Below are positions 5,297 through 56,381 of a stretch of DNA of 64,000 nucleotides, piece after piece. Location: positions 4,092,001-4,156,000 of the forward strand of contig OZ038456.1 in the NCBI GenBank assembly GCA_964036195.1, in the 5' to 3' direction. A program made the position numbers and the translations under genes. How positions within the stretch are numbered: the stretch's first letter is position 1; every line of letters starts with the position of its first letter. Source of the stretch: Sphaerolaimus hirsutus. Lineage: Eukaryota > Nematoda > Chromadorea > Monhysterida > Sphaerolaimidae. The notes under the pieces are model-generated. The model saw nothing but the letters and a program-made list of their open reading frames with translations, made no database searches and was not told where the DNA came from.

Positions 5297-7229
5297 TGTA
5301 AGAGCGTTTTTACGATGGGAAAAACACCACCCCACAAAATTTTAGACAAACAAATGCAATGATAATTCATGGAACGTAAACTACTATGTATTTTGTGAAC
5401 TAAATTTGGGCAAACTTTCTCAGACATTGCGGCGGCTTTTCGACGGCAACGGGGACTGCATGGCATGCACAGCCCTGCAGTGGGCTGCGCAGTACCCCGT
5501 CAGAGCACTGCATCGCAAGATCGACGCCGCTACATGGGCTGACCGAGTTCGCCATGTTTTCTAGTGGTTGTAGTGCTCTGCACAATTTCGTTTCCTTACC
5601 CCCAATTTTAATTACTGTTTTGTGCGCCAAAGCTATTTAAGTCAAATTGGCTAGGTTATGTCTAGCTTAGGCGTAACTGCATTCCACATGGCATAAGGTG
5701 AGAGGGGAATTTCACATTTTTCACTTTGAAATGCCGCGGCGCGGCGTGTGGCCGCCTTTGGGCTCGCCGGCACACTGTTGTGACTCTCTGGGCGGTCTAA
5801 AGCACATTCTACCCTTTACTTATCTTTGGGCAGAGGCGGAGACTGACGGCTGATAGGTAGGTGGCGACCGGAAGCCAGGAACAATGAATTCCACTCAAAA
5901 AAATACAAAAGCACTGTTCCGCGTTCCTCCCCATGTTGACTAGATTGTCGTGCGTCATCTAGTATCGGTGGGTGGTAGGAACAGCTTCTGATAACGCCCC
6001 AAGTGACAAGTAGCAGTCCAAAAAAATACTTTTCCGCCGCCCTAGCATAAATATCTCCTCGCGCTCGGAAGGGTGTGGCCATCGGGCTGAAACCTTTCTC
6101 ACGGGCGTTAGCTGACCGGATAGTCACAATAGTGGGTCGCGGGGTTGGAGGTGATAAGCATTTCGCGCCCGCGAGCATTTCCTAGCTACCGTAACTTATG
6201 AATACAAAACCCCCAAACAAAGTTTCCATGTGACATGTAGAAATTGTTGTACATACCGTTTCACGCCAATGCCTTTCATTCCCACGAGCTTAATTAATCG
6301 TTCTGTATCTTAATTAATTAACATTAGTTGTAAGCTTGTGTTAGCTGTCTAATTATTGATTAACTTAAATTGCTGTGTTGGATTATGATGCCGTAATTGC
6401 CTTTGTACATACTTTGTTCATTCTGTTTCTGCAATATGCGTTGCACTGCGCTGTTATCTGTTTTAAGTCGTCTTATATTAAGTAGGGATTTGTAGGTAAT
6501 TATGGAAGTGAGTAATTGTCGTATCAAGTAAACTTGTAAATTATAGGTTAAGCCCCCATGTCGCATGAAGCTTTTAATTACTTTTGTTAGCTGATATTAA
6601 TTAGTACTCTTTTTTCATAAGCAGCTGTGTTACGTACGATTTTACTAAGTGCTTACATCAGAGCTTATGTGATTTGAAAGTGATTTTGTAACCTCGCAAT
6701 TTTATGTCTTTTTTAGCTTTTTATTCGAATCGATTATGGTAGCCTTGATTGCCTTATAAGTAGCTGAAATTGTTTTTTTCCTCAACTTCGTCGATGCGAC
6801 GTAAGCTGATTTTGCTTCTACTCTGCCGCTACTGTTCTTCCATCGCCCTAAAAAATAAAACTCTCTTCTCAACCCAACTTGGACCCCCCTTTTGTATTGG
6901 CACTAAGTACTAACTGCTTTCCCTTAGTTAGCTAATTAACAACTGCTCTAATTGCCGTGCTGCTTATGCTGAGTGTAAGTGCTGTGCGTGCTGCGGGAAA
7001 CAGAACAGCGTGAGCCACCGAGTGGTTCATTGCACGTTCTGAAAAACCTACCGTCTTCGGACACGTTTCCTTAAAATTTACAACACGCATTTATAACCTG
7101 GACCTCCGGGCCCAGTGCAGTGCACTGCAGCGGCAAGCGGCCGGTGAGGTGGGAATAGAGGGAAAAGTGTGGTAAAAAACCTCGTGAATCGTGTAGTTGA
7201 AAAACAGCTGAATACACGGATTCATGACA
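5297..7229 (+). repeat. copy A 5' LTR
   Basis: 1933-bp direct repeat of 22381-24312, starting TGTAAGAGCG and ending GGATTCATGACA. Candidate promoter TTATAA near 6754 and polyadenylation signal AATAAA at 6854-6859 give a plausible U3-R-U5 layout with R starting near 6785. Small open frames inside (for example 5816-6178 on the minus strand) occur in both LTRs and resemble no known protein. Confidence 0.95.
6754..6859 (+). promoter_or_regulatory. copy A LTR core promoter and poly(A) signal candidates
   Basis: TTATAA at 6754-6759 and AATAAA at 6854-6859 are spaced as expected for transcription start and 3' end formation in an LTR. The same pair occurs in the 3' LTR. Assigned by motif and position only. 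Confidence 0.4.
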
Positions 7230-7232
7230 ACT

Positions 7233-7250
7233 TGGTAGCAGACGCGAGTG
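7233..7250 (+). other. copy A primer binding site (initiator Met tRNA-like)
   Basis: Three bases after the 5' LTR the sequence reads TGGTAGCAGA. That is complementary to the TCTGCTACCA 3' end typical of animal initiator methionine tRNA, a common Ty3/gypsy primer. The match stops after about 10 bases. Copy B has TGGTAGCGTAGCGAGTGG at the same place. Confidence 0.75.
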
Positions 7251-7338
7251 GTTTGCTTAATTCACTTCAGTGAACGGTGCGGCGCCTGATCAACGCCAAG
7301 CCGTTAAGTGATAAGTAACAAACGATCTGTCGCGCCGG

Positions 7339-10266
7339 GTGGAAACGCTGCGGTCAGGAGGGCCAGCGTCGATCCCAAGGTCAGTTGAGGAAGTGTGGAG
7401 AGCTGCAGAACAGCTACAGAAGCGCACGCGCCGAGAGGCGGCTTTGCGCAGGGCACAGCAGACTGCGGACGCGCAGGACGCTGAGGTTGAACAGGTAAGA
7501 GTTGAAGCAGGTGCGCAGGAAGCGGAAGCGGAAGCCGAGCGCGCACAGGAAGCAGCGACTTGGACCAGACGCACAGAGGATAGCACTCCCGTCGTCCGGC
7601 CAGTGCTGCAATTTGGAACAGGCGGCAGCCGTTGGGATACGCCGGCTTGCGCGCCAGGTGCGCTACCGACTGGGGCGGCTCGACGAGCGTCCAGTGGAGG
7701 CACAGAAACAGAACGCCCACCAGATAGTCCGCTCCTGCGACCCAACAGGCCAGTAAGTGCTGAGCCCGGGCGAGAGCAGAGGAAATCAAGTAAGTGGGGT
7801 TTATTTCGACGACCGTGGGGAAAAAGCGGCCGTAGCTCCCTGGTGTCGACAGGGTCTGGATCACAGGCTGATTCAGCAGGGTACGCTGGTGAAGACGAGC
7901 CCGTGAGTTCGTCTGCATACCAGCGTAGAAGTGGTGAGACTTCCGTAAATCTAATTGATACCCCAGTAGCGATCCCAGATATAAATATTGAATTTCCCTC
8001 GTTAGCCGAAGAGCTCGAAGAGGCGGAAAATTCATTGGGGGAGCTTCAATTAAGTGCCCCGCGAAGTTCTTCCACACCACGTGAACTTGCATCCGCGCAA
8101 GGCTCGATTGAAAGCTGTGTCTCTTCGAATAGAGCACGGCGCAGAATCGTAGGACCGTCTCCCATAAATCAAAGTAGAATGACCAGCACCCCGCCCCCAG
8201 GTTCGAGTGTGACGACCGCGCCGGGCACGCTCACCACGGTGACGACTACCCAGGCAGCCAACCAAGTGACGCCGGGCCAGATCCTGACGGCGGCGACCGC
8301 GGCGGACCCGGGCAGGGAAACCACTGGGTACACTAGAGAAGGTTGGACCTTCCCGGGCATGATACAACTACTGCACCAGTGGTCTGGGGAACTTAATCGC
8401 GCGGGACCAGCGGCGATTTCAGTCAATGCTTCCACAGCAGATAAAAATAAGCTACAGGCCATTAGGCTAGGTTTGAGTATGTACACCAGTGTAGGTAACC
8501 CTAGCGCGCTGGAGCAGGCCACCACTCAATTTTTGGCGTTTTGTTCTAACAGGGGATTAATTCCACCCATAGCATCGGCAGCTAATGCTACCTTAGGCGC
8601 GGGAACGGCCCCTGGGAACACAACCGCGCAGACTGTGCCCCCGCCGGCGAGTGTAAGCGGATCAGCGGGCGGCAGTGGAGCGACACCTGCGCCTGCAAAC
8701 GCCACGGCTCAACCAGCTACCAGTGTAATCAATTTGGCGGGACAGCCGGGTCCCTCCTCCCCAGGATCGTCAGGATCGATCTCACCTGCACCTAATCCTA
8801 CGGATCCAGACTATCTGGCACAGCACCAGGTGCCGCACGGCACGGCTGCTACGCTGACCGCCCTGGCTACGCAGTGCGATGCATTCACAGGAAGGGCTGA
8901 CAAGAGTTTCAAGGACTGGAGACGTAAGTGGGATATTTTGTGTGATGCGCTAGGTGTTTCAATGCGCTCTAGGCAAAAGTTGCTGCCTATCTTCTTACAA
9001 AAGAATGCCAATTCTATTTTTGTAGCTAGAAGGCGGGAACTGCGCGCACTCGATTACAAAGCCATGATGGATCGTTTGGAAGAATTGTTTGCAAATCCAA
9101 ACGCTCAGCATCATGCACAGCGCGAGTTTATTGAGTCAACTCAAAGTCCCACTGAATCTGTGCTGGACTGGGCAACTAGATTGGAACGTGCAGTAAAGCG
9201 CGCATATCCAATGCTGCATTCCGCCCAAAGGGAAGGCATGTGTATCACCAAGTTTCACCAGGGGTTGGACAAGGACATCAGGCGCAATCTGGCGGTGCAC
9301 GCCAATATAAGTTGGAAGGAATTAGTTGACAATGCGCGCATGCAAGAAAGCTATAAAAATCTTGAAACCGTTCAGAAGGAACATGCGAAGTCGGCCAGCG
9401 AGATCGTCGCCGAGACGTCGAACCAGGTCATGGAGCGCATCATGGCCATGAACCTGCACCCCTCGGTCCAGTCGATGGAGGCAGAGAGTGCCGAGAATGC
9501 GAAGCTCAAGGCCAAGGAACGGGCGCTCGACGAACAACAGAAAAAACTCGACGCCCAGGAAGCTAAGATGATGGGCGCACCGCGCCCGAGGCGTGAGTTA
9601 CCGCCCAAAAGGTTTGAAAATGGATGTTGGGAATGTGGATCTCCTGATCACTTTCGCTACCAATGTCCAAATAAGCCCCCTCCCGAGCCATCTGCTGGCA
9701 ACGATAGCAATCAGCGTGGCCGCGGAGGCGACTTTCGTGCGCGCGGTAGAGGTGGCGGCCGAGGGCGAGGCCGTGGACAGGGAGGACAATATCCACAAAA
9801 CTTTGTGTATCCAGGTGGATGGGTACCAATGCAATTAAGTCAACCTATGACCGTGCCTTCCTCGCAGATGATGCAGCCTGTGTACGTCCAGAGCCAGCAG
9901 CCCGCGGCCATCGGATGGCACCCGCAGCCACAACCGGCGCAACGGCCGTTGGAATCGCAGCAAGGCCAGAGCAGCAGCGTGCCGCTGCTGAACCCGACGA
10001 CAGTGACACAGGTGGGTGAATGCACTTACAAGGCCGTGACCGAGTCATCGCCGTCTTACGCTAGAATTCTCTTCCATCATGATCAACTATTGACATTGCA
10101 AGGGCTGGAACCGGAAGCCCCTGAAGAGGAGGAGGAGATGGAGGAGCAACCTGTAGCTAGCCTCCAGTGTAAAATGCACGCGCTCATGGTAGATTGGGAA
10201 AGTGGATTAGCCACTGGGCGTATCAACGCGAAGCCACGTCAATCCTATTTCGTACCAGTTGGTTAG
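7339..10266 (+). CDS. gag: copy A Gag-like protein
   Basis: About 975 codons. The N-terminal third is charged and Ala/Gln/Glu-rich. A Pro/Gly/Thr/Ala-rich linker follows (about residues 270-490), then a Ty3-type capsid region (about 495-660) with WRRKWDILCDALG and DRLEELF. One CCHC zinc knuckle, CWECGSPDHFRYQC, lies at residues 763-776, followed by an Arg/Gly-rich box at about 795-820 and a Gln/Pro-rich tail with an acidic stretch. The frame opens at a TAA at 7312 and has no ATG until 8179. The homologous region of copy B also lacks an early ATG, so initiation may be non-AUG or may use a spliced leader; 7339 (GTG) is nominal. The C-terminus leaves the frame that aligns with copy B near 10190. 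Gag would assemble particles and bind the RNA genome. Confidence 0.88.
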   Translation: METLRSGGPASIPRSVEEVWRAAEQLQKRTRREAALRRAQQTADAQDAEVEQVRVEAGAQEAEAEAERAQEAATWTRRTEDSTPVVRPVLQFGTGGSRWDTPACAPGALPTGAARRASSGGTETERPPDSPLLRPNRPVSAEPGREQRKSSKWGLFRRPWGKSGRSSLVSTGSGSQADSAGYAGEDEPVSSSAYQRRSGETSVNLIDTPVAIPDINIEFPSLAEELEEAENSLGELQLSAPRSSSTPRELASAQGSIESCVSSNRARRRIVGPSPINQSRMTSTPPPGSSVTTAPGTLTTVTTTQAANQVTPGQILTAATAADPGRETTGYTREGWTFPGMIQLLHQWSGELNRAGPAAISVNASTADKNKLQAIRLGLSMYTSVGNPSALEQATTQFLAFCSNRGLIPPIASAANATLGAGTAPGNTTAQTVPPPASVSGSAGGSGATPAPANATAQPATSVINLAGQPGPSSPGSSGSISPAPNPTDPDYLAQHQVPHGTAATLTALATQCDAFTGRADKSFKDWRRKWDILCDALGVSMRSRQKLLPIFLQKNANSIFVARRRELRALDYKAMMDRLEELFANPNAQHHAQREFIESTQSPTESVLDWATRLERAVKRAYPMLHSAQREGMCITKFHQGLDKDIRRNLAVHANISWKELVDNARMQESYKNLETVQKEHAKSASEIVAETSNQVMERIMAMNLHPSVQSMEAESAENAKLKAKERALDEQQKKLDAQEAKMMGAPRPRRELPPKRFENGCWECGSPDHFRYQCPNKPPPEPSAGNDSNQRGRGGDFRARGRGGGRGRGRGQGGQYPQNFVYPGGWVPMQLSQPMTVPSSQMMQPVYVQSQQPAAIGWHPQPQPAQRPLESQQGQSSSVPLLNPTTVTQVGECTYKAVTESSPSYARILFHHDQLLTLQGLEPEAPEEEEEMEEQPVASLQCKMHALMVDWESGLATGRINAKPRQSYFVPVG

Positions 10267-10901
10267 ATTACCTGCGGCGCACTGCGATGCATGATCTGAA
10301 GGATGAAGATTGTGTGGTGCTCCCAGACTGTCGCCCGCATGACGACCACAATGATACGCTTACCAGAATCGAGTGGAGGGTTTTGCGTGACGCCCCATTA
10401 GACCCATTCCTAAATGAGCCCCCTGTGATTTTGTCCCCGCGCACATTTTCGAGCACATGCGTTGATAAAATGGCTGAATTTAGAGACAAAACGTCCGCAG
10501 TGCCTCGCCAGCGAGCTTATTCTGAACCACCGTATAATAATCAAGTCTTTGGCGCCCTGTTTACAGTGTTCACCATCGCCGCGGTGATGGCGTGTTTGAG
10601 CTTGTTGCCTTTGGCGGTGGCCTCGACGATGCCGGACACGCCACTGCTGTGCAGCGACCTGACCGATCATTACGACTTGTACACCTACCCCGACTTGCCT
10701 AACTGCACCGCGTTAGTCGATTCTGCTGTGTCATTGACTAAACCGGTTCCCCTGAAACTCACTATTTACAAACGCAATATGGTAGAGTATCGTGCCACTG
10801 CGTATCGATGTGTAGCGGCCACAAGGTCGGCTCATACATCCATACATACTTTTGGGGTGACGTCACTTTGGAACACTTTGACTCACAGCCGCATGCGGTA
10901 G
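10194..10901 (+). CDS. env: copy A envelope-like glycoprotein, N-terminal part (different frame)
   Basis: Continues, in a frame shifted relative to gag, the sequence that in copy B lies in one frame from the gag tail. It carries a strong hydrophobic segment (about nt 10540-10620) that could be a signal or signal anchor, followed by a Cys-containing ectodomain with an N-glycosylation-like NCT. Similarity to copy B changes frame near 10850 at a run of T and G. This is a 1-nt lesion of copy A that copy B does not share. The displayed start is a TTG codon and is not taken as a real start. Viral family of the glycoprotein not identified. Confidence 0.7.
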   Translation: MGKWISHWAYQREATSILFRTSWLDYLRRTAMHDLKDEDCVVLPDCRPHDDHNDTLTRIEWRVLRDAPLDPFLNEPPVILSPRTFSSTCVDKMAEFRDKTSAVPRQRAYSEPPYNNQVFGALFTVFTIAAVMACLSLLPLAVASTMPDTPLLCSDLTDHYDLYTYPDLPNCTALVDSAVSLTKPVPLKLTIYKRNMVEYRATAYRCVAATRSAHTSIHTFGVTSLWNTLTHSRMR

Positions 10902-13525
10902 ATCCCTCGGAGTGTGAGAGCATGATGAAGTACCATAAGTGCAACGACGGCGCGCTTCAGCCAGTGGACGAGCTGAGCAACGCATGGGACACTCAATACC
11001 CGACAAACGTAAGTTATTCGGGGCACGGGCTGTACTGTTGCAGCTGGTTAATTACCAAGACCCCACAGTGTGGGCTGTTTAAGGGAGATGTACGCATGCG
11101 CTACGGCGCCAAGGTCATGCAAAGTACGCTAGGAGAAGTGTCAAAATGTAATTACGAGGAGGGCACCTGTACCCTGCCCGACGGTAGCCAATTAGTCTGG
11201 AAACCAAATCCAAAGGCTGAATGCCCCTATGAGAAATGGCAAGACATAGCTGGGTTAATTAGACAAGATATTTGGCTCGCGCGTGATCACACTTTGGCAT
11301 TGTCATTTCGAGCAAAAGAAGAAATCATTTCATGTGGTGAAAAATTATGGAAATCAGACCAGGATATTGTTGTGGCACCGTTCGAAATCCCCCCAATTAG
11401 GTATGTGCGGGAGAAGCGCCACGCTGCACGCCCCGGATTTGGCGTAGTGGACACCGGTCACTTGGCCGCAGCAATGCAAGCGGTGTACGAGACATCTGAG
11501 CAAACAATGCGTGCACAGGCCGTGTCTACTTGTAGGCACGTGCAACATTTTCAGGAACTTCTCCGCCTAGCTATGACCGAGCACCCGACGACCACAGCAC
11601 GCTGGTACATGCGCGACAATGAGATTTTGGCCAAGGCGGCGCCGGACGGATTTCTAGTGCATAAGTGTTTTGCGGTAAAGACTTATCAGTTGGGCACCGA
11701 AACAGGTAAAGGCGCGTGCCACGCTACGGTCCCAATACGAATGAAATTACATGGACAGAATGTGACCTTACATTTGGATACAATTACAAATGCCCTTCTG
11801 TTCCAGCCGGTTATGGGAACGTGCACAAATCGCCACGACCGTGTGTTGAAATTGCATGGGCAGTGGTATAAGTACTTACCTGAGAAAGGCTCCCTGGAAC
11901 ATATCCCCGTTTACAACACCCACAGTTTCCCACACAGGTGGCAGCTCGAACGACCGACGGACGTGCACCATCAGATCTTTGCCGCAACGACAATGTACAA
12001 TTTGTCTGAGCTGCTGCCGACCAACGACGTGTGGCACTCATACGCGATTGTGCGGCGCGTGCATGGAATGCCGACACATGCAGTTGATGGCAGTTTACAA
12101 TCGCATCGATTAATGGCCAGGTCAATGGTAAGCGTGGGATTTTGGGATTTTGACGCCTTGAGGTCATGGCTGCAGATATGGATTTATCTGGTGTGCGCCA
12201 TAGTGACTTGCCAGTATTTATTAGCAGCTTTGTTAGCCGCCGCGCCCCCGGCAGCTACGACGCTAATTGAACGTGCGCGCCGACGACTACGGCGGAAATC
12301 AAGGCCGCTAATTACCCGACACAGAGACGCAGGTAAGCGTAGCTTTATGAAAAGCTATGACGGCCGACTGACCGTGTTGAATCCGACAACAGGTGCGTCC
12401 GAGTGTGCATCAGATGACACGGTAACGGTACAGATGTTTCCATCAATTGAATATAATCACCAATTAGAAATGGCGGAAATTTCCATGAGCCCATCAGTGG
12501 AGAGAATCAGAATGATTACGCTATCAAAAGATGAACAGGAAAATATAAAGTCTGTCGTCGCTAGACGGAACGGGCCTGTGCATGTCTATTACAGTCCTGC
12601 AGTGCCCGTGTGCATGGACGGCATCATGTACCACAGCTGTTTGCTGGACACTGGCGCCATGCGCTCGTTATGCAGCAGAGATGTGTTCCAGGAACATCGA
12701 CATGGACACGACGCCGTCGAAGAAACCTCTCCCATTTCCCACATGCGATGTGCTGCGGATTCTAAGCTAATGATAATCGGTCAGTTGGAAATGCCCATTG
12801 AAATAGGGGGACACACATTTCGTGTCGTTTTCCAAGCCATCGATGGCCTGGTTGACAATTTAATTTTGGGCGCGGATGTGCTGCGGCACATGATAATTGA
12901 TATGCCCGCGCGCCTCTTAAAAATCCCCTCAGTAGGCGTCAGCGTTCCATTTTATAATCACAAGCCGGACGTGCAGATTCGTGCAGTGTTTGCATTAGTC
13001 ACAGCGGCTACCGAAATCAAGGCAAGGCATGAAGCGATGGTGCCGGTGCGCCTATCAGCTCCAGTTAGCTACCGTACATTGCATGTGAAATGTCCAGATG
13101 GACACGAAATGGAATTTTCTGTGCCCCAAACATTGTCAGAAAATGAGCGCAAGGAACTTGCAGCCGTACTTTTGGAGCACAAAGGCGCCTTTGCGAGACA
13201 CAAGTACGACATAGGGTATAGCGAATTGGTTGATTATCGGCTGCAATTAACCGATCGAAAACCGATTGCGTGCCGCATGTATCGGTTGAGCCTGGATGAC
13301 CAACAATACTTAGAAAAGCACCTGCGCTGTCTAATTGAACATGACATAATTGAAACAAGTACAAGCCCATACTGCGCTCACACATTAGTTGTTTCTAAAC
13401 CTGATGGTTCTAAACGCATGGTCATTGATTACAGGCGATTAAATTTGGTTTTGCATGCGCCACAATTTCCATTGCCGAGGCTGGATGACACCGTTGATGC
13501 ACTCAGCAACTGCAAGTTTTTTTAG
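10808..13525 (+). CDS. copy A envelope-like ectodomain + membrane anchor + protease + N-terminal RT, one ORF
   Basis: A single 905-codon open frame. Order: Cys-rich ectodomain (about 10850-11400) with several paired-looking cysteines and N-V-S / N-C-T type sites; furin-like REKR at about 11408-11419; a helical segment with AAAMQAVYETSEQTMRAQAV; a membrane segment near 12165-12270 (LQIWIYLVCAIVTCQYLL) followed by a very basic stretch. Then comes a retropepsin-type aspartic protease with LLDTGA (catalytic Asp codon 12647-12649) and LILGADVL. Last is the fingers part of RT with SPYCAHTLVVSKPDGSKRMV, ending at TTT-TTT-TAG at 13517-13525. An envelope-like protein upstream of and fused to protease is not the usual retroviral order (gag-pro-pol-env). 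Copy B shows the same fusion. See findings for the +1 site. Confidence 0.87.
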   Translation: MCSGHKVGSYIHTYFWGDVTLEHFDSQPHAVDPSECESMMKYHKCNDGALQPVDELSNAWDTQYPTNVSYSGHGLYCCSWLITKTPQCGLFKGDVRMRYGAKVMQSTLGEVSKCNYEEGTCTLPDGSQLVWKPNPKAECPYEKWQDIAGLIRQDIWLARDHTLALSFRAKEEIISCGEKLWKSDQDIVVAPFEIPPIRYVREKRHAARPGFGVVDTGHLAAAMQAVYETSEQTMRAQAVSTCRHVQHFQELLRLAMTEHPTTTARWYMRDNEILAKAAPDGFLVHKCFAVKTYQLGTETGKGACHATVPIRMKLHGQNVTLHLDTITNALLFQPVMGTCTNRHDRVLKLHGQWYKYLPEKGSLEHIPVYNTHSFPHRWQLERPTDVHHQIFAATTMYNLSELLPTNDVWHSYAIVRRVHGMPTHAVDGSLQSHRLMARSMVSVGFWDFDALRSWLQIWIYLVCAIVTCQYLLAALLAAAPPAATTLIERARRRLRRKSRPLITRHRDAGKRSFMKSYDGRLTVLNPTTGASECASDDTVTVQMFPSIEYNHQLEMAEISMSPSVERIRMITLSKDEQENIKSVVARRNGPVHVYYSPAVPVCMDGIMYHSCLLDTGAMRSLCSRDVFQEHRHGHDAVEETSPISHMRCAADSKLMIIGQLEMPIEIGGHTFRVVFQAIDGLVDNLILGADVLRHMIIDMPARLLKIPSVGVSVPFYNHKPDVQIRAVFALVTAATEIKARHEAMVPVRLSAPVSYRTLHVKCPDGHEMEFSVPQTLSENERKELAAVLLEHKGAFARHKYDIGYSELVDYRLQLTDRKPIACRMYRLSLDDQQYLEKHLRCLIEHDIIETSTSPYCAHTLVVSKPDGSKRMVIDYRRLNLVLHAPQFPLPRLDDTVDALSNCKFF

Positions 13526-13530
13526 CAGCG
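13517..13530 (+). promoter_or_regulatory. candidate +1 ribosomal frameshift site inside RT (copy A)
   Basis: A run of seven T ends in TAG followed by C. The upstream frame stops at this TAG. The downstream frame, which encodes SSADINQAFYN, starts one base later. A +1 slip of tRNA-Phe on TTT-T before a stop with C at the next position matches known +1 sites (bacterial prfB, antizyme). Copy B has the same arrangement at 48870-48880. Confidence 0.6.
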
Positions 13531-15764
13531 CCGATATTAATCAGGCCTTCTATAATATTGCACTGCATCCCGACGACAGACACATCACTTCATTCCGTAA
13601 TATTTTTGGTCAATTCCAATTAAAGAGATTACCTATGGGACTGAAATGTTCACCAAGTTTGGCACAAAGGTGTTTTGAACTTGCAATGGCGGGATTGATT
13701 CATCGCAATGTGCTATTGTACATTGACGACTTGTTAATTTACAGTATGGACTGGAAAACCCATTTAAGTGACATTGGCCAAATTTTGGATCGACTGATCA
13801 AAAACAACTTCAAAATTAGTCCCCGTAAGTGTTTTTTCGCACGTATCACTGCGGTAAAATTTCTGGGCTTTATGATCGGCCGCGAGGGCATTTGCATTCC
13901 CATGGACAAACGCAATATTATCTCAGAATGGCCCCTCCCGAAAACTGTCAAGGAAGTCAAAGGGTTTTTGGGAGCAGTGGGATTTTTCAGACGCATGATC
14001 CACAGGTGCGCCGAAATAGCAGTGCCACTATCGAATTTGACACGCACTGGCCCGCGCGAGAACTACGATGGAAATGCGCCAGTAGATCTCAATGATAACC
14101 CTGAGGCTCTGAGAGCTTTCTTCCAATTAAAAGAAATTTTATTACACAGCCCCTGTTTGCAATACCCGAACCCAAATAAAACATTCATCGTAATTACAGA
14201 CGCTTCACAAATTGCGGTCGCTGGAGTGCTGGTGCAGCGAGCCGACGAAAAATCCGGACTGCATGCGTGCGCTTTCTACAGCCGGAAGTTGACTGAGGTT
14301 CAGAGCAGATGGCCCGCCATCACTCTAGAGGCTTACGCAATTTTTGAGAGCGTTCGAAATTGGCATTGCTACCTGGCGGGACGCCCCTTTGAAGTGTGGA
14401 CTGATGCCAAAAGTATCCCTTGGGTGAAGAACCCCAATTTGGAAGCTACACCACACGCCGCATTGCATAAGTTTGCGTTGGCCATTGCCCCGTATCAAAT
14501 TACATTCAAGCACTTGAAAGGAAAGTACAATGAGCTCGCAGATGCCCTGTCCCGAAGGCGCGATGCGCCAATAACTTTCGACGAGAAATTAGAACTTGAC
14601 GAGGCATTTGAGCAATTTGCACTCATTAAAATATCGCACAATAAAACTGTCGCGACGCAGACCGCAATCGACCCGTGGGATACGGTAGCTACTGTTTCCA
14701 GACGCGCGCCTACCAAGGAACCAATGAGGACACGCGCGCGTGCGAGGGCGGAGTCTGCGGCGCGTGACCACAACCCTGGGACAATGGACACGCGACAGCC
14801 GGCAAACAATGGGGTGGAGCCAATTACCGGACTCACTACCGTAGGTCCACAAACAATGGCTGGTGGCCCCGCGGCTACCGAAGTGCGCGTCAACGGTTTT
14901 CACACTGATCATGTTTTGCCCCCGTTTGTCCCTATAATTGAATTGAAGCGCTTGCAAATGCAAGAAGCGTATTTAGTGAATTTGATGGAAGTTTGTAAGG
15001 ATGCACCTGGACAATGTGTGCCACCGTTTTTTATTGATCAATATGGAATTATGCGAAAAAGGGCTGAGGCTTCAATAGTACCGGGGATCAAGTTGTATGA
15101 TCCCGTGTGTATTCCAGCCTCATTGTGCCCGCTAGTATTCGAACTAGCGCACAATCACCCTACAGCGGGACATCTGGGAATAATGAAAACTTTCGAAAGA
15201 TTACAGGAATTTGCGTGGTTCCCAAATATGCGCCCCGAAAGCGCACATTGGGTCGCCACGTGCCCTTTGTGTTGTGCGCGAAAAGGACTCAGGCAGTCGA
15301 TGCAGACTTTGATGGCGTGCCGGAAAATCGCGCGATCTCCCGGCGATGTCATCGCAGTCCACGCCGTTGGCCCGCTGCCACGCACGCGGCGCCGGCATAA
15401 ACACGTGTTGGTTTTCGTTGACCAGTGCACGCGATTTGGTATCGCTGTGCCGGTACCCAATATACGTCAGGATACTGTAGCATTTGCATTTTTGCTACAC
15501 ATTCTTCCCATATTTAGCGTACCCGGCGCCATTTTGAGCGATAACGCGCCAAGCTTTGTCGAAGGGGCATTCAAAAGATTGTTATTGTATTTCAATACCC
15601 TTCAGCATCGCTCATTTGCGTATATGCCAAAAGGCAACGGAATGGTGGAGCGTCGAAACGGTGTTCTGATGGAAATCGTGTCCCATTACGTGAACCAAAC
15701 CCATTCCGATTGGGACTACCACCTAGGCGCCGCGGTGCATCGCGTTGACAATTCTCAAATCTAA
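13526..15764 (+). CDS. pol: copy A RT (palm onward), RNase H, integrase N-terminal and core
   Basis: Frame begins at the +1 site (an upstream ATG at 13455 is probably incidental). RT palm has the catalytic YIDDLLIY near 13719, then the thumb with KEVKGFLGAVGFFRRMIH. RNase H has VITDASQIAVAGVLV and a second TDAKSI motif. A Pro/Arg-rich linker follows. The integrase zinc domain has HNHPTAGHLG and CPLCCARK. In the core, LSDNAPSF (second Asp) and NGMVERRNG (Glu) are present, but the first catalytic Asp is His (codon 15360-15362); copy B has Asp there. The frame ends in foreign sequence at about 15740-15764, so the core is cut after its Glu motif. Confidence 0.9.
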
Positions 15765-17095
15765 AAGCCCCCCCCCCCCCCCCCCCCCCGAAAAACTCCC
15801 CCTCGAAAAAGTCCCACCCTGTTAGCTGACAGAGAAAAAATCACCCTCTTGATTAACTCCACTACTTTATGGGGAGAGCTATTTTATCATCAGGAAATTT
15901 TTTAGGGTGTCTTATTTGAGGGGGTAGATATTTGTCAGGGGAAATATTCGACAGGGGAGTTGTTTTTTCGCTAGAATTTAGCTTAAAATATGTGCATGGC
16001 GTAACATAACATGGAGGATTCACACCAAAGTTCACATTAAATCACTCAGTCAACCCTTCTTATCATTCTCAAATCGTCACATTTTACAAGGCTCACTTCA
16101 AATGATCAAACAAACTGACATTTTTCAAGAGACCTCCATCCCCAGTCCGACAAACTTGCATGCCGCTGTCATATGTGTGGAATGCATACAATGAGGCAAA
16201 ACAATTCCACCCATCATAGTAACTTCTGCCCGTGGCGAAAGTTGTACATGCGGATTGGAAATCTGTTGGGGGTGGGGGTTGTGGAATTGAAATCTGTTGG
16301 GGGGTGGGGGTTGCGGATTGGAAATCTGTTGGGGGTGGGGGTTGTGGAATTGAAATCTGTTGGGGGGTGGGGGTTGCGGATTGGAAATCTGTTGGGGGTG
16401 GGGGTTGTGGAATTGAAATCTGCTGGGGGTGGGGGTTGCGGATTGGCAATCTGTTGGGGGTGGGGGTTGCGGATTGGAAATCTGTTGGGGGTGGGGGTTG
16501 TGGAATTGAAATCTGCTGGGGGTGGGGGTTGCGGATTGGCAATCTGTTGGGGGTGGGGGTTGCGGATTGGCAATCTGTTGGGGGTGGGGGTTGCGGATTG
16601 GAAATCTGTTGGGGGTGGGGGTTGTGGATTGGAAATCTGTTGGGGGGTGGGGGTTGCGGATTGGCAATCTGTTGGGGGTGGGGGTTGCGGATTGGCAATC
16701 TGTTGGGGGTGGGGGTTGCGGATTGGAAATCTGTTGGGGGTGGGGGTTGTGGAATTGAAATCTGTTGGGGGGTGGGGGTTGCGGATTGGCAATCTGTTGG
16801 GGGTGGGGGTTGCGGATTGGCAATCTGTTGGGGGTGGGGGTTGCGGATTGGAAATCTGTTGGGGGTGGGGGTTGTGGAATTGAAATCTGCTGGGGGTGGG
16901 GGTTGCGGATTGGAAATCTGTTGGGGGTGGGGGTTGTGGAATTGAAATCTGCTGGGGGTGGGGGTTGCGGATTGGCAATCTGTTGGGGGTGGGGGTTGCG
17001 GATTGGCAATCTGTTGGGGGTGGGGGTTGCGGATTGGAAATCTGTTGGGGGTGGGGGTTGTGGAATTGAAATCTGTTGGGGGGTGGGGGTTGCGG
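15740..17095. other. foreign segment replacing about 28 codons of copy A integrase
   Basis: Relative to copy B, integrase coding sequence stops just after ...GAAVH and resumes near 17096. In between lie a 22-bp C-run (15768-15789), an unassigned AT-rich stretch (15790-16250) and a G-rich minisatellite (16250-17098). No TSD is obvious, and host sequence was lost at the same time, so this is a replacement rather than a clean transposon insertion. Confidence 0.75.
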
Positions 17096-17098
17096 ATT
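16250..17098 (+). repeat. G-rich minisatellite, 31-32-bp unit, about 27 copies
   Basis: Unit close to GGATTGGAAATCTGTT followed by GGGGGTGGGGGTTGC. Variants carry GGCAATC or GGAATTGAAATC, and CTGCTG or an extra G. Three G-runs per unit on the + strand give strong G-quadruplex potential. All frames are open on both strands because the unit lacks stop codons, so the long Pro/Gly-rich open frames here are artefacts. Confidence 0.95.
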
Positions 17099-17515
17099 GG
17101 AAACATGTTGACGCCCCCCGCCGCTGGCGCAATGCTACCCGAGTCGACAGATAAGCACGGCGAACCTACCGAGCTCGCGCAGCGTCTCTCGGCGGCGCGC
17201 AATGCGGCGCATACCGCGCTTAGGAATGCTCAATTGAAAGAGCAATACTACGCCAATCGCCGCGCCCGCCATTTGAATTTGAAGCCGGGCCAAGCGGTCC
17301 GTATTTTCACTCCGCGCTTGACCGATCAGACCGGCCCTTGTAAAAAATTTGCTGCTTTCTTTTTAGGCCCCTACGAATGCATTCGCTATGCTCATCCGCT
17401 TGTAACTATTTATAATGATACTAATGATAAGATTTATGTAGTGCATGCGGACCGCTGTAAACCAACGCTTGAAAACATTATCCCCACGTGTACGCAGAAT
17501 CTCGGCCCTACTTAG
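17096..17515 (+). CDS. pol: copy A integrase C-terminal domain (detached)
   Basis: After the minisatellite the frame again matches the copy B integrase end: a helical AAHTAL region, then EQYYANRRARHLNLKPGQAV, FTPRL, PYECIRYAHPLV and YVVHADRCK. This is the GPY/F-like C-terminal module of Ty3/gypsy integrases (here GPYEC). It stops at 17515. It has no start of its own and is separated from the catalytic core. Confidence 0.85.
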   Translation: MGNMLTPPAAGAMLPESTDKHGEPTELAQRLSAARNAAHTALRNAQLKEQYYANRRARHLNLKPGQAVRIFTPRLTDQTGPCKKFAAFFLGPYECIRYAHPLVTIYNDTNDKIYVVHADRCKPTLENIIPTCTQNLGPT

Positions 17516-17777: not shown

Positions 17778-20700
17778 ATGGCCGGAAGGAGCATGGGCGC
17801 CAAACGGCAGCACAATGGCCGGCGGGCCAGCGCCGCGGGCTCGGGCTTCACGAAAGCCACCACCCAACGTGGCGAACCGGGCGCCACCATACCGCCCCCC
17901 AAGGTGGATCACCAGTGGGGTGAGAACCAGCGGCCCCCGCTGCCCGTCTACGCGAAGCGGATGTTCGCTGGCTGGGTGGACCGTGTCTACTGGAGACACG
18001 ACACTGCCGACCGGGAATACTACCAAGCCCACGTGCGACTTCACGACGACGCGTTGGCCGAGCTGGCCAAGAATGACGAATGGAACGACGCCGACAACGT
18101 GTACCCGTTCTTCACCTACTCGACCAACATCGCGCGCAGCGCCCGCGACCGCCGCACGTCGGTCGTGGTGGCGCAGTACGCCAACGTCAACGAGATGTAC
18201 GGCCCGGAGCTGCACTTGCCGCTCGTCAGACACGGTATGAAGTTTACGGCCAGGTATGTGCAGCGCTGCACTGCCAAACCTGACTACTGGGAGTTCTTTG
18301 ACATTAAATTGGACATGAACAAAAGCGCTAGCCCCCTATTGGTGGCAGTGCCCGTCGTCGTAACCGTACAGGGACGCGCCCCGGCCGACCATGAGTACGA
18401 CGCGCAGCGCGACGAGGTCGGCTACCAGCGCTACTCAACGAACTGGCGCTCGCTACGGCTGCGAGTCGCGTTTACGCCCCGCCGCTACAAGGAACTGCCG
18501 GAGTTGGGCGCGGGCAAGCGCAACGACTGCAGCCCGGAGCGCTTGGCGTTCGCGCACCGCAAATACACCATGCCCGGCAACCCGATCCCGAGCGCAGGTA
18601 TGTTGGGGATTGCCCACGTCGAGTTTCACGACCTGAATAACGATGTGTTTGACAACGTCTATTACGCACATGCGTATGGCGTTTTCTTGCTCGAAAAATC
18701 GGCGCTGGAAGATTTTTACTTCCATGACCCCCACGAGGTGTCATTGGATCGGGTGCACCCGCCGCACCTGCGCACCAAGTACGTGATGCTGGCCGCAGCA
18801 TACATGTACCACGAGTCTTTGTTGCGTTTCCGAGCGGCACGCGCCACGGCGGTGCGCGCGCTAATTGAGTGGGAAGCGACCGACGCAGGTACCAAGGCAT
18901 GCATCACGATCAACAGGCCGGACCTGGCCGACGCCGTCAACGACGAGCAAGAGCAAATGGACAAGCAGCAGAGACGCGCGAACGCGCAAATCAACGCTCT
19001 ACCCCAGCTGCTGGTCGGCGCCGGACCGATGTCGGTGCTGACGTTGACCAAGGCGATGCCCGACGACGACAGGCCCAACCCGACGCAGCCAAAGTTGCAG
19101 CTGCGAGTGGCCACCTTAGAGGTAAGCCCGGAGCGGGCTGTAATTGTGGGCAATTTGGACTTGAAGTTGAGCCAGGCGGCGCTCCCGGCCGAGCTCGAGA
19201 ACGGCGACTACATGGTGCGCACCACCAATGAGTCGCCCAACTACGTGCGAACCATGCGTTCTTTGCAAGGCGCTATCGAGCGCCTGAACGAAGGTTGGAG
19301 ACCGTCCAACATACGCTCGGGCAATGTCCTAAAACTGGGTGACCAGATCGCCATTGCCATTGTGTATGATGACCGGTTGTCCGACACGTTCACCCAGTGG
19401 TCGCACATCCGCGCCACGGCCGCGCCTCTAGAAGACGAAATCCGTCAGGGCACGTCCGAAGCGCTACTGGTGAGTGAGCCCGGCGAGTTCAAGCCGCTGG
19501 GCGGCCAGGCGAAAACCCTGGCGGCCGTTTTAGCCGCCTTGAAGCTGGCGTGGCCGCTGTTGCTCATGTGCGACTCCCCGTTCGGCACTGGCAAGACCAC
19601 TGTGCAGAACCAGGTGGCGTACATGTGCTCATTGTACTTCAACCAGTTTAATGGTCGCCCATTCACAGACAGTAATTCCACCCTTTCCTCCGACATCACT
19701 TCCAACGCCAAATACCACTCCACCATCGTCACGTGCACCGTCAACTCGGCGACGGACGAGAGCGCTAGGCGCGCTGTGCAAAACATGCGGCGCACCGGCT
19801 GCGACGGCGTGCACGAGGCCGTGCGCCGCCTGCTGCTGGGCCGCAAGCAGTGGTCCGAACTGCCCGCCGCGCAAGTCAAGGACATGCTGCAAGAGCCCGG
19901 GTACGTTGAATATTTGAAATTGAGAGCGGCGTTCGCTGTAAGGGTACTGAGCCCCCTGTTGGAAACCCAGGAGGTGTACAGCGACCTCGCTGTAGACGAC
20001 CTGCCCGCGTTACACAAAATAGCGCAGGACACCCCATTCTCGGTCGCGCGGGCCGACGCCCAGTGGATAGAGCTAGTAGACCAGTACTGGGCGGTGAAAA
20101 CTGAGTACGAGACCGTGCACTCCATCGTCGCAGGTCCCAACCAAACCCCCCAGCAGGTGATGAAGGCACTAATGGAGCAGGTGCCGCACCTAGTCGTCAC
20201 TGGTGAAGACGACGATGAAGAATGGGACGACGACAACGACGAGGTCGTAGCGGGTCGCACGGGCGTCGATGTGAACGACCCGGACCTCGAGGACACGGAC
20301 TGGGGCCGCGTGCTGCGCCGGGCCGCCAGGAGGTACGCCAAGGGCACCGTCAAGCTGCACAAGTACGTTCTGGATTTGTTGCAGCCGGGACAGATCCACG
20401 TGACTGTCGATTCGACACATGATGTGCGCATCAAGCACATCAGGTACTGTGCCATGATAGTGGACGAGGCGTCGCTCGTCACGAACATCTCCATGGTCAC
20501 AGCGTTGAACCCCGTGTCGCTCCCCCACAACGGCTTAGTCTTGCTGTTCGGCAACAGCAAGCAACTCACCCGCAAAGTTCAGACCCAGCGCTGGGTTGAA
20601 CCCTTCCTTAATCCCTCTCCATCTTTGATTGATGGACTCACAGCGTCCAAAATGTGCCCCCTGCTGCGGCTGGAAACGGTTTTCCGCAGGCACCCCCAGC

Positions 20701-21788
20701 TGATCAACGCCAACTCGCACGCGGCGTACGAAGGCCGGCTCCGCCCCTATCATCAGAAATCGCCGTGCAGGGATGACAACTTGCCGCGCATGCCGGGCGA
20801 CCACGTCCCGATCCCGCTGTCCACGGTCATCAACCACACCGGACTGGAAACCAAGGAGGGCACATCGACCGTCAACGTACCCGAGCAGCTCATCGTAGTG
20901 CAGTTGGTTAAACATTTTGTGGAATTGGCGAACCAAGGCGGCGTGCCCTGGAGTGACTTGAGTTGGGCGGATGCCATATTGGTGGTTACTTTTTATGCGG
21001 CGCAGCAGCGCGCGCTGATCGACAAATTGGCAACCGACCCGTCGTTGAAGCACTACGGGCGAGAATTCGGGGCGACTCGAGTGCTCACCGCCGACAAAGC
21101 GCAAGCCAGAGAAGCTGAGGTGACCATCGTGTCGTGCGTGCGCAGCAGCGAGCCGCCCGCGCGCGACAGGTTGACCACCCAGTATTCTCAGCAGACCACT
21201 CGAGTCAGCTTTGTGGCTCAGCTGGAGCGTGGAAACGTGGCCACCTCCCGCTCGCGTTGCGCCAGAGTCGTAGTGGCCAACGTGGAGACCTTGTTGTGGT
21301 CTGACTTCTTCCACATTTTCTTTTCGTATGAATTCGCTTCGGCTGGTCTTTACCAGTATCATGCAGAGAAAATCTGGGGATCCAGGATATGGACCTGGTC
21401 GCCCGACTGGAGACCACAGGCCCACTGCCCCGAGCACCAGTACGACGACGATGAAGAAGCCGCCCAGACTGAGCTCGCCCAGCCGGACGTCAATATGGAC
21501 GAGCCCGTGGACGTACAACACGCGCCCCAGCCGGCGGACGAGCCGCTGCCGTACGACCCCACGGACGAGGTCGAGGACATCGCCAGCACCTCCGATGGCG
21601 ATGCCGACGACGCCACATTCTCCGCGCCGGAAGAGGAGGCGCTGCTAGCCCCCGGCGGCGACATCAAGCCCGACGAACCCGTGGCGGTCGCTGCGCCAAC
21701 GCCGGCGCCGACTAAAGAGGACGACATGCAGCCCGAGGTCGCTACCGAAGAAGATGTGCCGATGGAGGGCACTGACGAGGGAGTTTGA
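17778..21788 (+). CDS. copy A superfamily 1 (UPF1-like) helicase
   Basis: Intact 1336-aa ORF starting at ATG 17778 (taacATGG context). The first 580 residues match no family I can name, but copy B has them too. Helicase motifs follow in order: Walker A FGTGKTT (residues 603-608), motif II VDEAS (about 895-899), motif III FGNSKQL (about 924-930, with Asn where copy B has Asp), an LETVFRRHP motif like the UPF1 QYRMHP, motif V DKAQAREAEVTIVSCVRS (about 1106-1123) and motif VI GNVATSRSR (about 1152-1160). This set and its spacing point to the SF1B UPF1/SMUBP2/NAM7 group, predicted to be a 5'-3' RNA or DNA helicase. An acidic, low-complexity tail runs from about 1215 to 1336. It stays open while the rest of copy A is damaged. 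A Ty3/gypsy element carrying such a helicase is not something I recognise. Confidence 0.88.
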   Translation: MAGRSMGAKRQHNGRRASAAGSGFTKATTQRGEPGATIPPPKVDHQWGENQRPPLPVYAKRMFAGWVDRVYWRHDTADREYYQAHVRLHDDALAELAKNDEWNDADNVYPFFTYSTNIARSARDRRTSVVVAQYANVNEMYGPELHLPLVRHGMKFTARYVQRCTAKPDYWEFFDIKLDMNKSASPLLVAVPVVVTVQGRAPADHEYDAQRDEVGYQRYSTNWRSLRLRVAFTPRRYKELPELGAGKRNDCSPERLAFAHRKYTMPGNPIPSAGMLGIAHVEFHDLNNDVFDNVYYAHAYGVFLLEKSALEDFYFHDPHEVSLDRVHPPHLRTKYVMLAAAYMYHESLLRFRAARATAVRALIEWEATDAGTKACITINRPDLADAVNDEQEQMDKQQRRANAQINALPQLLVGAGPMSVLTLTKAMPDDDRPNPTQPKLQLRVATLEVSPERAVIVGNLDLKLSQAALPAELENGDYMVRTTNESPNYVRTMRSLQGAIERLNEGWRPSNIRSGNVLKLGDQIAIAIVYDDRLSDTFTQWSHIRATAAPLEDEIRQGTSEALLVSEPGEFKPLGGQAKTLAAVLAALKLAWPLLLMCDSPFGTGKTTVQNQVAYMCSLYFNQFNGRPFTDSNSTLSSDITSNAKYHSTIVTCTVNSATDESARRAVQNMRRTGCDGVHEAVRRLLLGRKQWSELPAAQVKDMLQEPGYVEYLKLRAAFAVRVLSPLLETQEVYSDLAVDDLPALHKIAQDTPFSVARADAQWIELVDQYWAVKTEYETVHSIVAGPNQTPQQVMKALMEQVPHLVVTGEDDDEEWDDDNDEVVAGRTGVDVNDPDLEDTDWGRVLRRAARRYAKGTVKLHKYVLDLLQPGQIHVTVDSTHDVRIKHIRYCAMIVDEASLVTNISMVTALNPVSLPHNGLVLLFGNSKQLTRKVQTQRWVEPFLNPSPSLIDGLTASKMCPLLRLETVFRRHPQLINANSHAAYEGRLRPYHQKSPCRDDNLPRMPGDHVPIPLSTVINHTGLETKEGTSTVNVPEQLIVVQLVKHFVELANQGGVPWSDLSWADAILVVTFYAAQQRALIDKLATDPSLKHYGREFGATRVLTADKAQAREAEVTIVSCVRSSEPPARDRLTTQYSQQTTRVSFVAQLERGNVATSRSRCARVVVANVETLLWSDFFHIFFSYEFASAGLYQYHAEKIWGSRIWTWSPDWRPQAHCPEHQYDDDEEAAQTELAQPDVNMDEPVDVQHAPQPADEPLPYDPTDEVEDIASTSDGDADDATFSAPEEEALLAPGGDIKPDEPVAVAAPTPAPTKEDDMQPEVATEEDVPMEGTDEGV

Positions 21789-22380: not shown

Positions 22381-24312
22381 TGTAAGAGCGTTTTTACGAT
22401 GGGAAAAACACCACCCCACAAAATTTTATCAAACAAATGCAATGATAATTCATGGAACGTAAACTACTATGTATTTTGTGAACTAAATTTGGGCAAACTT
22501 TCTCAGACATTGCGGCGGCTTTTCGACGGCAATGGGGACTGCATGGCATGCACAGCCCTGCAGTGGGCTGCGCAGTACCCCGTCAGAGCACTGCATCGCA
22601 AGATCGACGCCGCTACATGGGCTGACCGAGTTCGCCATGTTTTCTAGTGGTTGTAGTGCTCTGCACAATTTCGTTTCCTTACCCCCAATTTTAATTACTG
22701 TTTTGTGCGCCAAAGCTATTTAAGTCAAATTGGCTAGGTTATGTCTAGCTTAGGCGTAACTGCATTCCACATGGCATAAGGTGAGAGGGGAATTTCACAT
22801 TTTTCACTTTGAAATGCCGCGGCGCGGCATGTGGCCGCCTTTGGGCTCGCCGGCACACTGTTGTGACTCTCTGGGCGGTCTAAAGCACATTCTACCCTTT
22901 ACTTATCTTTGGGCAGAGGCAGAGACTGACGGCTGATAGGTAGGTGGCGACCGGAAGCCAGGAACAATGAATTCCACTCAAAAAAATACAAAAGCACTGT
23001 TCCGCGTTCCTCCCCATGTTGACTAGATTGTCGTGCGTCATCTAGTATCGGTGGGTGGTAGGAACAGCTTCTGATAACGCCCCAAGTGACAAGTCGCAGT
23101 CCAAAAAAATACTTTTCCGCCGCCCTAGCATAAATATCTCCTCGCGCTCGGAAGGGTGTGGCCATCGGGCTGAAACCTTTCTCACGGGCGTTAGCTGACC
23201 GGATAGTCACAATAGTGGGTCGCGGGGTTGGAGGTGATAAGCATTTCGCGCCCGCGAGCATTTCCTAGCTACCGTAACTTATGAATACAAAACCCCCAAA
23301 CAAAGTTTCCATGTGACATGTAGAAATTGTTGTACATACCGTTTCACGCCAATGCCTTTCATTCCCACGAGCTTAATTAATCGTTCTGTATCTTAATTAA
23401 TTAACATTAGTTGTAAGCTTGTGTTAGCTGTCTAATTATTGATTAACTTAAATTGCTGTGTTGGATTATGATGCCGTAATTGCCTTTGTACATACTTTGT
23501 TCATTCTGTTTCTGCAATATGCGTTGCACTGCACTGTTATCTGTTTTAAGTCGTCTTATATTAAGTAGGGATTTGTAGGTAATTATGGAAGTGAGTAATT
23601 GTTGTATCAAGTAAACTTGTAAATTATAGGTTAAGCCCCCATGTCGCATGAAGCTTTTAATTACTTTTGTTAGCTGATATTAATTAGTACTCTTTTTTCA
23701 TAAGCAGCTGTGTTACGTACGATTTTACTAAGTGCTTACATCAGAGCTTATGTGATTTGAAAGTGATTTTGTAACCTCGCAATTTTATGTCTTTTTTAGC
23801 TTTTTATTCGAATCGATTATGGTAGCCTTGATTGCCTTATAAGTAGCTGAAATTGTTTTTTTCCTCAACTTCGTCGATGCGACGTAAGCTGATTTTGCTT
23901 CTACTCTGCCGCTACTGTTCTTCCATCGCCCTAAAAAATAAAACTCTCTTCTCAACCCAACTTGGACCCCCCTTTTGTATTGGCACTAAGTACTAACTGC
24001 TTTCCCTTAGTTAGCTAATTAACAACTGCTCTAATTGCCGTGCTGCTTATGCTGAGTGTAAGTGCTGTGCGTGCTGCGGGAAACGGAACAGCGTGAGCCA
24101 CCGAGTGGTTCATCGCACGTTCTGAAAAACCTACCGTCTTCGGACACGTTTCCTTAAAATTTACAACACGCATTTATAACCTGGACCTCCGGGCCCAGTG
24201 CAGTGCACTGCAGCGGCAAGCGGCCGGTGAGGTGGGAATAGAGGGAAAAGTGCGGTAAAAAACCTCGTGAATCGTGTAGTCGAAAAACAGCTGAATACAC
24301 GGATTCATGACA
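22381..24312 (+). repeat. copy A 3' LTR
   Basis: 1932-bp near-identical partner of 5297-7229, with about a dozen substitutions plus one short indel near 22429. Followed by TSD TATG at 24313-24316. Confidence 0.95.
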
Positions 24313-39551: not shown

Positions 39552-39749
39552 TTTCTCAAAAATCAGAGTGATATATTGATATATATTTTTCCAAAAAAAA
39601 TTGGTGATTATTTGAATGCTAGGTACAATCAAATGAAATTTCAGGTGTGGGTGGACGACACCCTCCTATATATACCGCCACCAGTCAGTCAGATAGTTAC
39701 CTAGATAGCTGGCCAATTTGGGTTACCCCTTAGAGAACCCCCGTTCTAT

Positions 39750-51259: not shown

Positions 51260-51402
51260 AGGCTTGCACTCTTTTTTGTCTGACGCGTCGAATCACTGCC
51301 TTCTCAAATGGCGCCACCACAATATCCTGATCTGATTTCCATAATTTGATGCCGCATGATTTGACCTCTTCATGTGCTCTGAAAGACAGTGATAGCGTGT
51401 GA

Positions 51403-52329: not shown

Positions 52330-52359
52330 GTCCGAGTGATCATCTGCAGGACAATTAGG

Positions 52360-56379: not shown

Positions 56380-56381
56380 GT

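Follow-up and report, generated by a model that had tools for sequence, protein, structure and literature searches.

An intact UPF1-like SF1B helicase gene inside the long terminal repeats of two families of giant retroelements in the nematode Sphaerolaimus hirsutus

We analysed 64,000 nucleotides of the genome of the nematode Sphaerolaimus hirsutus (contig OZ038456.1, positions 4,092,001 to 4,156,000; this whole stretch is the window, and positions are counted from its first letter). A giant long terminal repeat (LTR) retroelement in the window, element A, carries an intact gene for a UPF1-like helicase of superfamily 1B (SF1B) at 17778..21788 on the plus strand. The gene encodes 1336 amino acids (aa) from an ATG at 17778 within an open frame of 1339 codons (17769-21788), which confirms the complete frame reported in a preliminary description of this DNA. 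A second element in the window, element B, represents another family and holds a decayed version of the gene. In both families the helicase gene lies inside the LTRs, is linked to the reverse transcriptase (RT) gene in nearly all copies checked, has intact motor motifs in the copies read and, judging by its substitution pattern, is under purifying selection. We give roughly even chances to a broader reading, namely that these Ty3/gypsy-type elements, giants of 18-19 kb that carry env, form a lineage which is old but has multiplied recently, and in which an RNA-acting SF1B helicase is a permanent third gene.

The helicase gene and its class

The gene lies between the integrase and the 3' LTR of element A, and its predicted product has an N-terminal part of about 580 aa, a helicase core at residues ~585-1190 and an acidic tail. 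A profile check against the Pfam families AAA_11 and AAA_12 had been suggested for it. AAA_12 is clearly present at residues 952-1172 (E 3e-22, 79.6 bits, cut-off 27) and again in an intact B-type helicase, copy L050 (E 5e-25), whereas AAA_11 reaches 14.4 bits in the element A protein, under the Pfam cut-off. The motifs SPFG[T/S]GKT (Walker A), DEAS, G[N/D]SKQLT, VFRxHxQL, TADKAQAREAEV, SCVR and RGNVATSR are common to element A and L050 and stand in the same order; they include the helicase motifs I, II, III, V and VI. The ordered SF1B motifs of the preliminary description were thus found again, except that its RRHP motif is not kept in B. The AAA_12 domain together with this motif order is what characterizes UPF1-like SF1B helicases.

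The name 'UPF1-like' is appropriate at the level of the SF1B group and no closer, since the matches to UPF1-, Sen1-, SMUBP2- and MOV10-like proteins are all weak and no single subfamily can be assigned from the sequence. When the PDB was searched with the element A helicase alone, UPF1 was found at E 1e-3. A profile of the A core and an intact B-type core matched 8ftm ('5'-3' RNA helicase-like protein', which we take to be Sen1) at 6e-8, UPF1 at 5e-7, NAM7 at 2e-4, SMUBP2 at 2e-3 and SEN1 at 5e-3. The NCBIfam family IGHMBP2 was matched at E 1e-7, with 30.7 bits against a cut-off of 348.9. In a search of 5.8 billion proteins with residues 570-1190, one of the 8000 scored candidates matched, a Bodo saltans protein (E 4e-6) that is presumably MOV10-like in view of its Pfam domain PF21634. 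A single family of unknown function was matched in PHROGs (E 2e-4), and scans of IMG/VR found no relative. A helicase of the viral SF1 type was considered and rejected, Viral_helicase1 being matched below its cut-off both in L050 (E 0.06) and in a window B piece (E 0.002).

Genome-wide, the host UPF1 gene supplies the two best AAA_12 matches, one on the chromosome-size contig C14 and the other, almost identical, on C65, a contig of 91 kb (compared through a reading of the translations only); the second copy is either another haplotype or a duplication. The C14 exon matches UPF1, presumably the human protein, at E 8e-63 and 214 bits, and yeast NAM7 at 177 bits, values that point to an animal genome. 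The reading frames of both UPF1 copies are split as by introns, whereas the element helicase is one uninterrupted frame. In matched stretches, identity between host UPF1 and the element helicases is only 23-28%, and the UPF1 zinc domain, which we take to be the one called CH, is absent among the Pfam matches of the element protein, so that both the CH domain and the high identity of a UPF1 orthologue are lacking. Such low identity rules out a recent capture of host UPF1. The helicase gene may be old, or may derive from another SF1B gene; among host SF1B genes, the comparison covered UPF1.

Copies across the genome and linkage with reverse transcriptase

The genome searched was the 348-Mb assembly that contains the window. 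All genome-wide counts are lower bounds, and the matches listed lean to the best-preserved copies. The assembly holds at least 78 A-type and at least 87 B-type helicase matches. With the window A helicase as query, 35 of 614 candidates were scored, and all proved 97-100% identical with frames of 1335-1345 codons. A 111-aa piece spanning motifs V-VI (150 of 414 candidates scored) separated 78 A-type matches (73-100% identical) from 72 B-type ones (55-59%). Full-length frames of at least 1326 aa occur in 47 of the first 72 A-type matches, which are 89-100% identical, and in 53 of the 87 matches scored (of 488) with the N-terminal piece of the B helicase, which are 91-100% identical. Apart from the two host UPF1 matches, the AAA_12 search of the genome (150 of 454 scored) returned 148 matches at 90-98 bits, which look B-type by score and place. 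With so many intact genomic copies, the helicase frame is not a product of chance.

The RT palm piece gave 67 A-type (95-100% identical) and 83 B-type (90-91%) matches among 150 scored of 1305. Among the matches listed, 61 of the 67 A-type RT matches are followed, on the same strand and no more than 60 kb away, by a helicase match. The distance is 5-8 kb in 54 of these pairs (median over all 61, 6198 bp) and 4.9, 8.0, 8.7, 18.1, 18.8, 18.9 and 31.9 kb in the remaining seven. The six A-type RT matches with no listed helicase lie on C15, C3, C14, C187, C472 and C489; those on C472 and C489 are less than 2 kb from the contig edge toward which the element points. B-type pairs number 66 of 83 among the matches listed, and 15 of the other 17 hold a helicase at the expected place (81 of 83 in all); for two, none was found at that one place. 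Copies of the family without the helicase are thus few, 6 of 67 among the A-type matches listed and 2 of 83 B-type at the place inspected. No RT match is in reach for 17 of the 78 A-type helicase matches. Three of these, two of them with 1337-aa frames, correspond to L017, to L013 or to short pieces close to the end of a contig; in L013 and L017 the helicase is flanked by integrase and LTR sequence.

All 30 A loci read, which are the window copy and 29 others, show the order integrase, helicase, 3' LTR, so the gene is indeed inside the LTRs and downstream of integrase, as had been proposed. In all six B-type loci compared, collinearity with window B begins before the helicase and extends beyond it, the comparison stopping short of the LTR. 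The same position of the gene in both families contradicts independent insertions of a host gene, and in the case of UPF1 so does the low identity.

Selection and divergence

Within families, the ratio of non-synonymous to synonymous differences per site (pN/pS) is 0.05-0.25 overall. In the A family, where the sample was the best 30 copies by protein score, it is 0.09-0.17 between copy L001 and the 29 others, 0.08 when pooled over all pairs of the 30 and 0.07 over the 28 without L001 and L002; by segment against L001 it is 0.13 for residues 46-580, 0.11 for the core and 0.16 for the C tail. Six B copies, picked for open frames, give 0.05-0.06 for pairs about 4% apart and 0.06-0.25 for closer pairs. 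Values near 1, which had been named as evidence against a retained function, were not seen in these samples.

Between families, the helicases differ at pN 0.41 and pS 0.70, with synonymous sites near saturation. Compared with window copy B, which was not selected for an open frame, element A differs at 0.64 of third, 0.44 of first and 0.35 of second codon positions; the window B helicase is 43% and 40% identical to that of A in two pieces. Amino-acid identity between A and B is 43-44% for the helicase, ~40% for gag, ~63% for the env/protease frame and ~70% for pol, and the non-synonymous distance (dN) is 0.58 for the helicase vs 0.23 for pol. The LTRs of A and B share only 11-13-base matches (E 0.11 or worse), that is, no significant similarity. 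Both families therefore keep the helicase despite unrelated LTRs and pol proteins that differ at about 30% of residues. This bears out the earlier view of two copies with different LTRs and diverged proteins, and its conclusion that the helicase is an old, retained gene rather than a one-off acquisition agrees with its presence in two families and many intact copies.

Organization of the two elements

Element A spans 5297-24312 on the plus strand (19.0 kb). Its LTRs of 1.93 kb (5' LTR 5297..7229, TGTAAGAGCG...TTCATGACA, with TG..CA ends; 3' LTR 22381..24312) are 99.4% identical, with a Kimura two-parameter (K2P) distance of 0.006, and the element is flanked by the 4-bp direct repeat TATG. A candidate primer-binding site at 7230..7250, TGGTAGCAGA, resembles what we take to be the complement of the 3' end of initiator tRNA-Met; element B reads TGGTAGCGTAG at the matching place. 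The gag frame (7315..10266) has a Retrotrans_gag/PNMA-like stretch and a CCHC knuckle, all below cut-offs, and the homologous B-type frame in copy L032 exceeds the gag cut-off (26.7 vs 24.1 bits). The env-like glycoprotein region (10173..12400, right edge approximate) comprises frame 10173-10898 and the first part of frame 10742-13525. An aspartyl protease follows in frame with env (12602..12880, residues 621-713 of the latter frame), its match being weak (PF13975, E 0.005, below cut-off). The glycoprotein is of the Monjiviricetes/Chuviridae type and is placed between gag and protease: PF24664 (Monjiviricetes_fusion) scores 28.9 bits in element A and 28.6 in L032, against a cut-off of 27; for the broken piece of window B the score is just 18.7 bits.

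The RT palm, RNase H and integrase of element A occupy 13443..15764 (RVT_1 1e-21, RT_RNaseH_2 4e-28, H2C2 4e-15 and rve 2.5e-6, the last under its cut-off). Integrase is interrupted after ~15752 by foreign sequence of about 1.3 kb (~15753..17105) that replaces ~70 nt of sister sequence and that none of the 29 other A-type loci read contains; it includes a 31-bp G-rich tandem array of ~28 copies (16249-17110), likewise missing from those loci. The C-terminal part after the insertion (17106..17515), 68% identical to B 46203-46474, is continuous with the rest of integrase in sister copies. The damage earlier ascribed to gag, env and integrase of copy A is therefore real for integrase; gag and env are spread over three frames in copy A, as against one frame in its sister L031, which itself has one stop within env.

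In both families a GT-rich tract occurs in the stretch before the helicase ATG (17516-17777 in A, 45866-46150 in B); after it come a predicted hairpin in A and inverted matches, seen by eye only, in B. This leader is possibly a regulatory or splice region. The G+C content of 18001-22000, the helicase region, is 59-61%, that of the pol region 12001-16000 is 47-50%, and most window stretches outside both elements have 32-46%.

Element B spans 39749-57991 on the minus strand (18.2 kb). Its 1.6-kb LTRs (3' LTR 39749..41389, 5' LTR 56381..57991) are 95.6% identical (K2P distance 0.029), and the flanking repeat is ATAG. The decayed helicase gene (41962..45865) has a frame change near 44353 and in-frame stops at 43609-43611 and 42844-42846; the part with RT palm, RNase H and integrase (46154..48910) has an in-frame stop at 46898-46900; and the part with the gag end, env, protease and RT fingers (48873..53652) is broken, all on the minus strand. 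The gag region of copy B also contains a 427-bp direct duplication, 99% identical (53440-53866 and 54786-55212). Between the elements lies a tandem repeat of 28 copies of 39 bp (32140-33227), and a 338-bp palindrome at 60081-60418, with arms 95% matched, has the appearance of a small foldback element. Rfam gave no match to the window at gathering scores.

Both window copies have env and protease in a single frame. In L032 (3-5057), a B-type copy, gag and env form one frame of 1685 codons, followed by a TGA and then, in the same frame, by protease and the RT fingers. This TGA (5058-5060, at the env/protease junction) is a sense codon in both window copies, and is either a leaky stop or a private mutation.

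In addition, RT itself is split by a +1 frame change, located at 13510..13530 on the plus strand in A and at ~48870-48890 on the minus strand in B. It occurs at TGCAAGT[T/A]TTTTTAGCAG in 24 of 24 copies read, namely window A, window B, L031, L032 and 20 fetched copies (10 of the 67 A-type and 10 of the 83 B-type RT matches; the upstream frame of L072 was read by eye). The spelling is AAG TTT TTT TAG C in A and AAG TAT TTT TAG C in B. No frame longer than 931 aa is found among the 150 RT matches scored of 1305, as expected if the split is general. The site, with its shifty stop within RT, is a candidate for programmed +1 frameshifting, in which tRNA-Phe might shift its pairing forward by one base while UAG occupies the A site. 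Ty3-type RTs keep a K-[F/Y]-F-S stretch, and the alternative of a 10-nt GT..AG intron was rejected because its removal would presumably delete this stretch.

Discussion

The most likely main role of the helicase would be to unwind or remodel the giant RNA, or ribonucleoprotein (RNP), of the element itself, although we rate this as slightly short of an even chance. The protein might be made separately from a downstream message, probably spliced or internally initiated, and might use ATP to translocate 5'-3' along RNA, acting on the element's RNA or RNP. By opening structure and stripping proteins it could allow an unusually long genomic RNA to be packaged and copied, while the 580-aa N-terminal part and the acidic tail might target it to Gag or RNA. 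Several observations weigh against such a reading. The N-terminal 580 aa belong to no Pfam family and matched no protein found; with the first 500 residues as search words against the same 5.8 billion proteins, there was none at E <= 1e-3 among 8000 scored. The AlphaFold model of the helicase core, built from a four-row alignment, has a predicted local distance difference test score (pLDDT) of 34. No splice signal upstream of the helicase ATG has been proven. Picking copies by score or open frames biases pN/pS down. Finally, between families the helicase has diverged to a similar degree as gag and far more than pol, a pattern that is at least as consistent with a partner in an arms race with the host as with a core enzyme of replication.

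This last point leads to the strongest alternative, which we regard as possible but distinctly less probable: the helicase could serve in counter-defence against the RNA surveillance of the host, whether as a decoy or as a suppressor; the target would be either UPF1-dependent nonsense-mediated decay (NMD) or small-RNA silencing of the MOV10/Armitage type. UPF1-like and MOV10-like helicases are surveillance factors, the element helicase has relatives of both kinds, and NMD would threaten a long polycistronic RNA in which stops come early. The faster divergence of the helicase than of pol between families (dN 0.58 vs 0.23) points the same way, as do preliminary complementation data for the SF1 domain of a long interspersed nuclear element (LINE), read by their authors as silencing suppression (PMC4686597). 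Yet the protein is far from host UPF1, with the CH domain absent among its Pfam matches, pN/pS is far below 1 overall, and every motor motif is kept, which a pure decoy would not need.

A role on DNA, in cDNA synthesis, strand displacement, nuclear steps or integration, seems improbable. AAA_12 is indifferent to substrate, and SF1B members of the SMUBP2 and DNA2 kinds act on DNA, as Sen1 also does; however, the best profile matches are the RNA helicases of Sen1 and UPF1 type. Still harder to defend is neutral cargo, a gene trapped between LTRs and copied without function by recent amplification. LTR distances of 0.6% in A and 2.9% in B mark the window copies as young, so that open frames alone could reflect such amplification, but frame and motifs are kept in two families at near-saturated synonymous distance, and within families synonymous change exceeds non-synonymous change about 4- to 20-fold per site. 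Misassembly, or a host helicase gene beside rather than in the element, had nothing in its favour and can be practically dismissed: each of the 30 A loci has integrase before the helicase and the 3' LTR after it, and host UPF1 lies elsewhere, in a frame split as by introns.

Returning to a helicase that serves the element's own replication, it is tempting to speculate further. Large RNA viruses encode helicases, and by analogy the elements might represent their reverse-transcribing counterpart: a distinct retrovirus-like lineage with its own replication SF1B helicase and a gag-env-protease-RT(fingers) polyprotein, RT being completed by the putative programmed +1 frameshift. We put this forward tentatively, with odds leaning against it. 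A high-copy LTR family that keeps a helicase raises the question of whether the helicase lifts the limit on retroelement genome size, and a second question, whether retroelements have been armed with relatives of host RNA-surveillance helicases. The conserved +1 change inside RT is a possible new point of translational control.

Comparison with known systems

The order protease (weak), RT, RNase H and integrase, the TG..CA ends of the LTRs and the 4-bp repeats suggest that elements A and B are of the Ty3/gypsy type, an assignment by domain order, LTR ends and target repeats. Of the 8000 candidates scored with pol, 23 reach E <= 1e-60; these have gypsy-type pol domains and are 25-35% identical, with none above 35% among those scored. 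Placing env before protease, and a helicase rather than env downstream of pol, sets the elements apart from Errantivirus, and their LTR ends and 4-bp repeats distinguish them from Troyka, described with CG..CG ends and 3-bp target repeats (PMC12440569). Mosquito BEL/Pao elements with a Chuviridae-type glycoprotein share the broad class of captured glycoprotein but have BEL/Pao pol, unlike the pol found here, and a helicase is not mentioned in the accessible parts of the two papers (PMC7642597, PMC13172572). Cellular SF1B helicases of the UPF1, Sen1, SMUBP2 and MOV10 types are alike in AAA_12 and motif order; the element helicase differs in its low identity, unrelated N-terminal part, uninterrupted frame and retroelement location.

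A close parallel in layout is Burro, a giant planarian gypsy element of more than 30 kb with a 4,873-aa ORF1 (open reading frame 1) whose domains include BIR, BCL2 and MATH; one Burro-like ORF1 is homologous to the AAA ATPase midasin (PMC6431247). Like Burro, the present elements are giant LTR elements of gypsy type with extra protein domains and with a fusion glycoprotein, env-like and in frame, that is placed between gag and protease (PMC6431247), and gag and env are in one frame in L031 (with its stop inside env) and L032, which is the Burro-type placement of env. The differences are the size of 18-19 kb, the UPF1-like helicase after integrase and the +1 change inside RT. No Pfam match to BIR, BCL2 or MATH was found in the frames scanned of elements A and B and L032, and an SF1 helicase gene is not named for Burro in what is accessible of the source (PMC6431247). 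The bdelloid rotifer LTR elements Juno and Vesta, most of them without env, have an ORF3 for a DEDDy exonuclease or GDSL esterase (PMC5408684); there, too, an enzyme gene lies downstream of pol, the usual env site, with a helicase here in place of the exonuclease or esterase.

The preliminary description held that LTR retrotransposons normally carry no helicase. In line with this, we found no LTR element with a UPF1-like or other cellular-type SF1B helicase gene, nor any other reverse-transcribing element with a helicase of that type, in the accessible open-access PMC literature, the field covered (Repbase lay outside its scope). For retroelements in general the statement is too broad. Cucumoviral and pomoviral helicase sequences are described as close to plant LTR-type retrotransposons (PMC4686597), and insect R1 LINEs have an SF1 helicase (SF1H) of tobamovirus type fused to ORF2 (Lazareva et al. 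2015, PMC4686597; PMC5803895). The R1 LINEs are the nearest precedent: in both cases a retroelement has gained an SF1 helicase, which in R1 is a viral-type domain fused to ORF2 of a LINE and in S. hirsutus a separate gene of the cellular, UPF1-like AAA_12 type carried by an LTR element.

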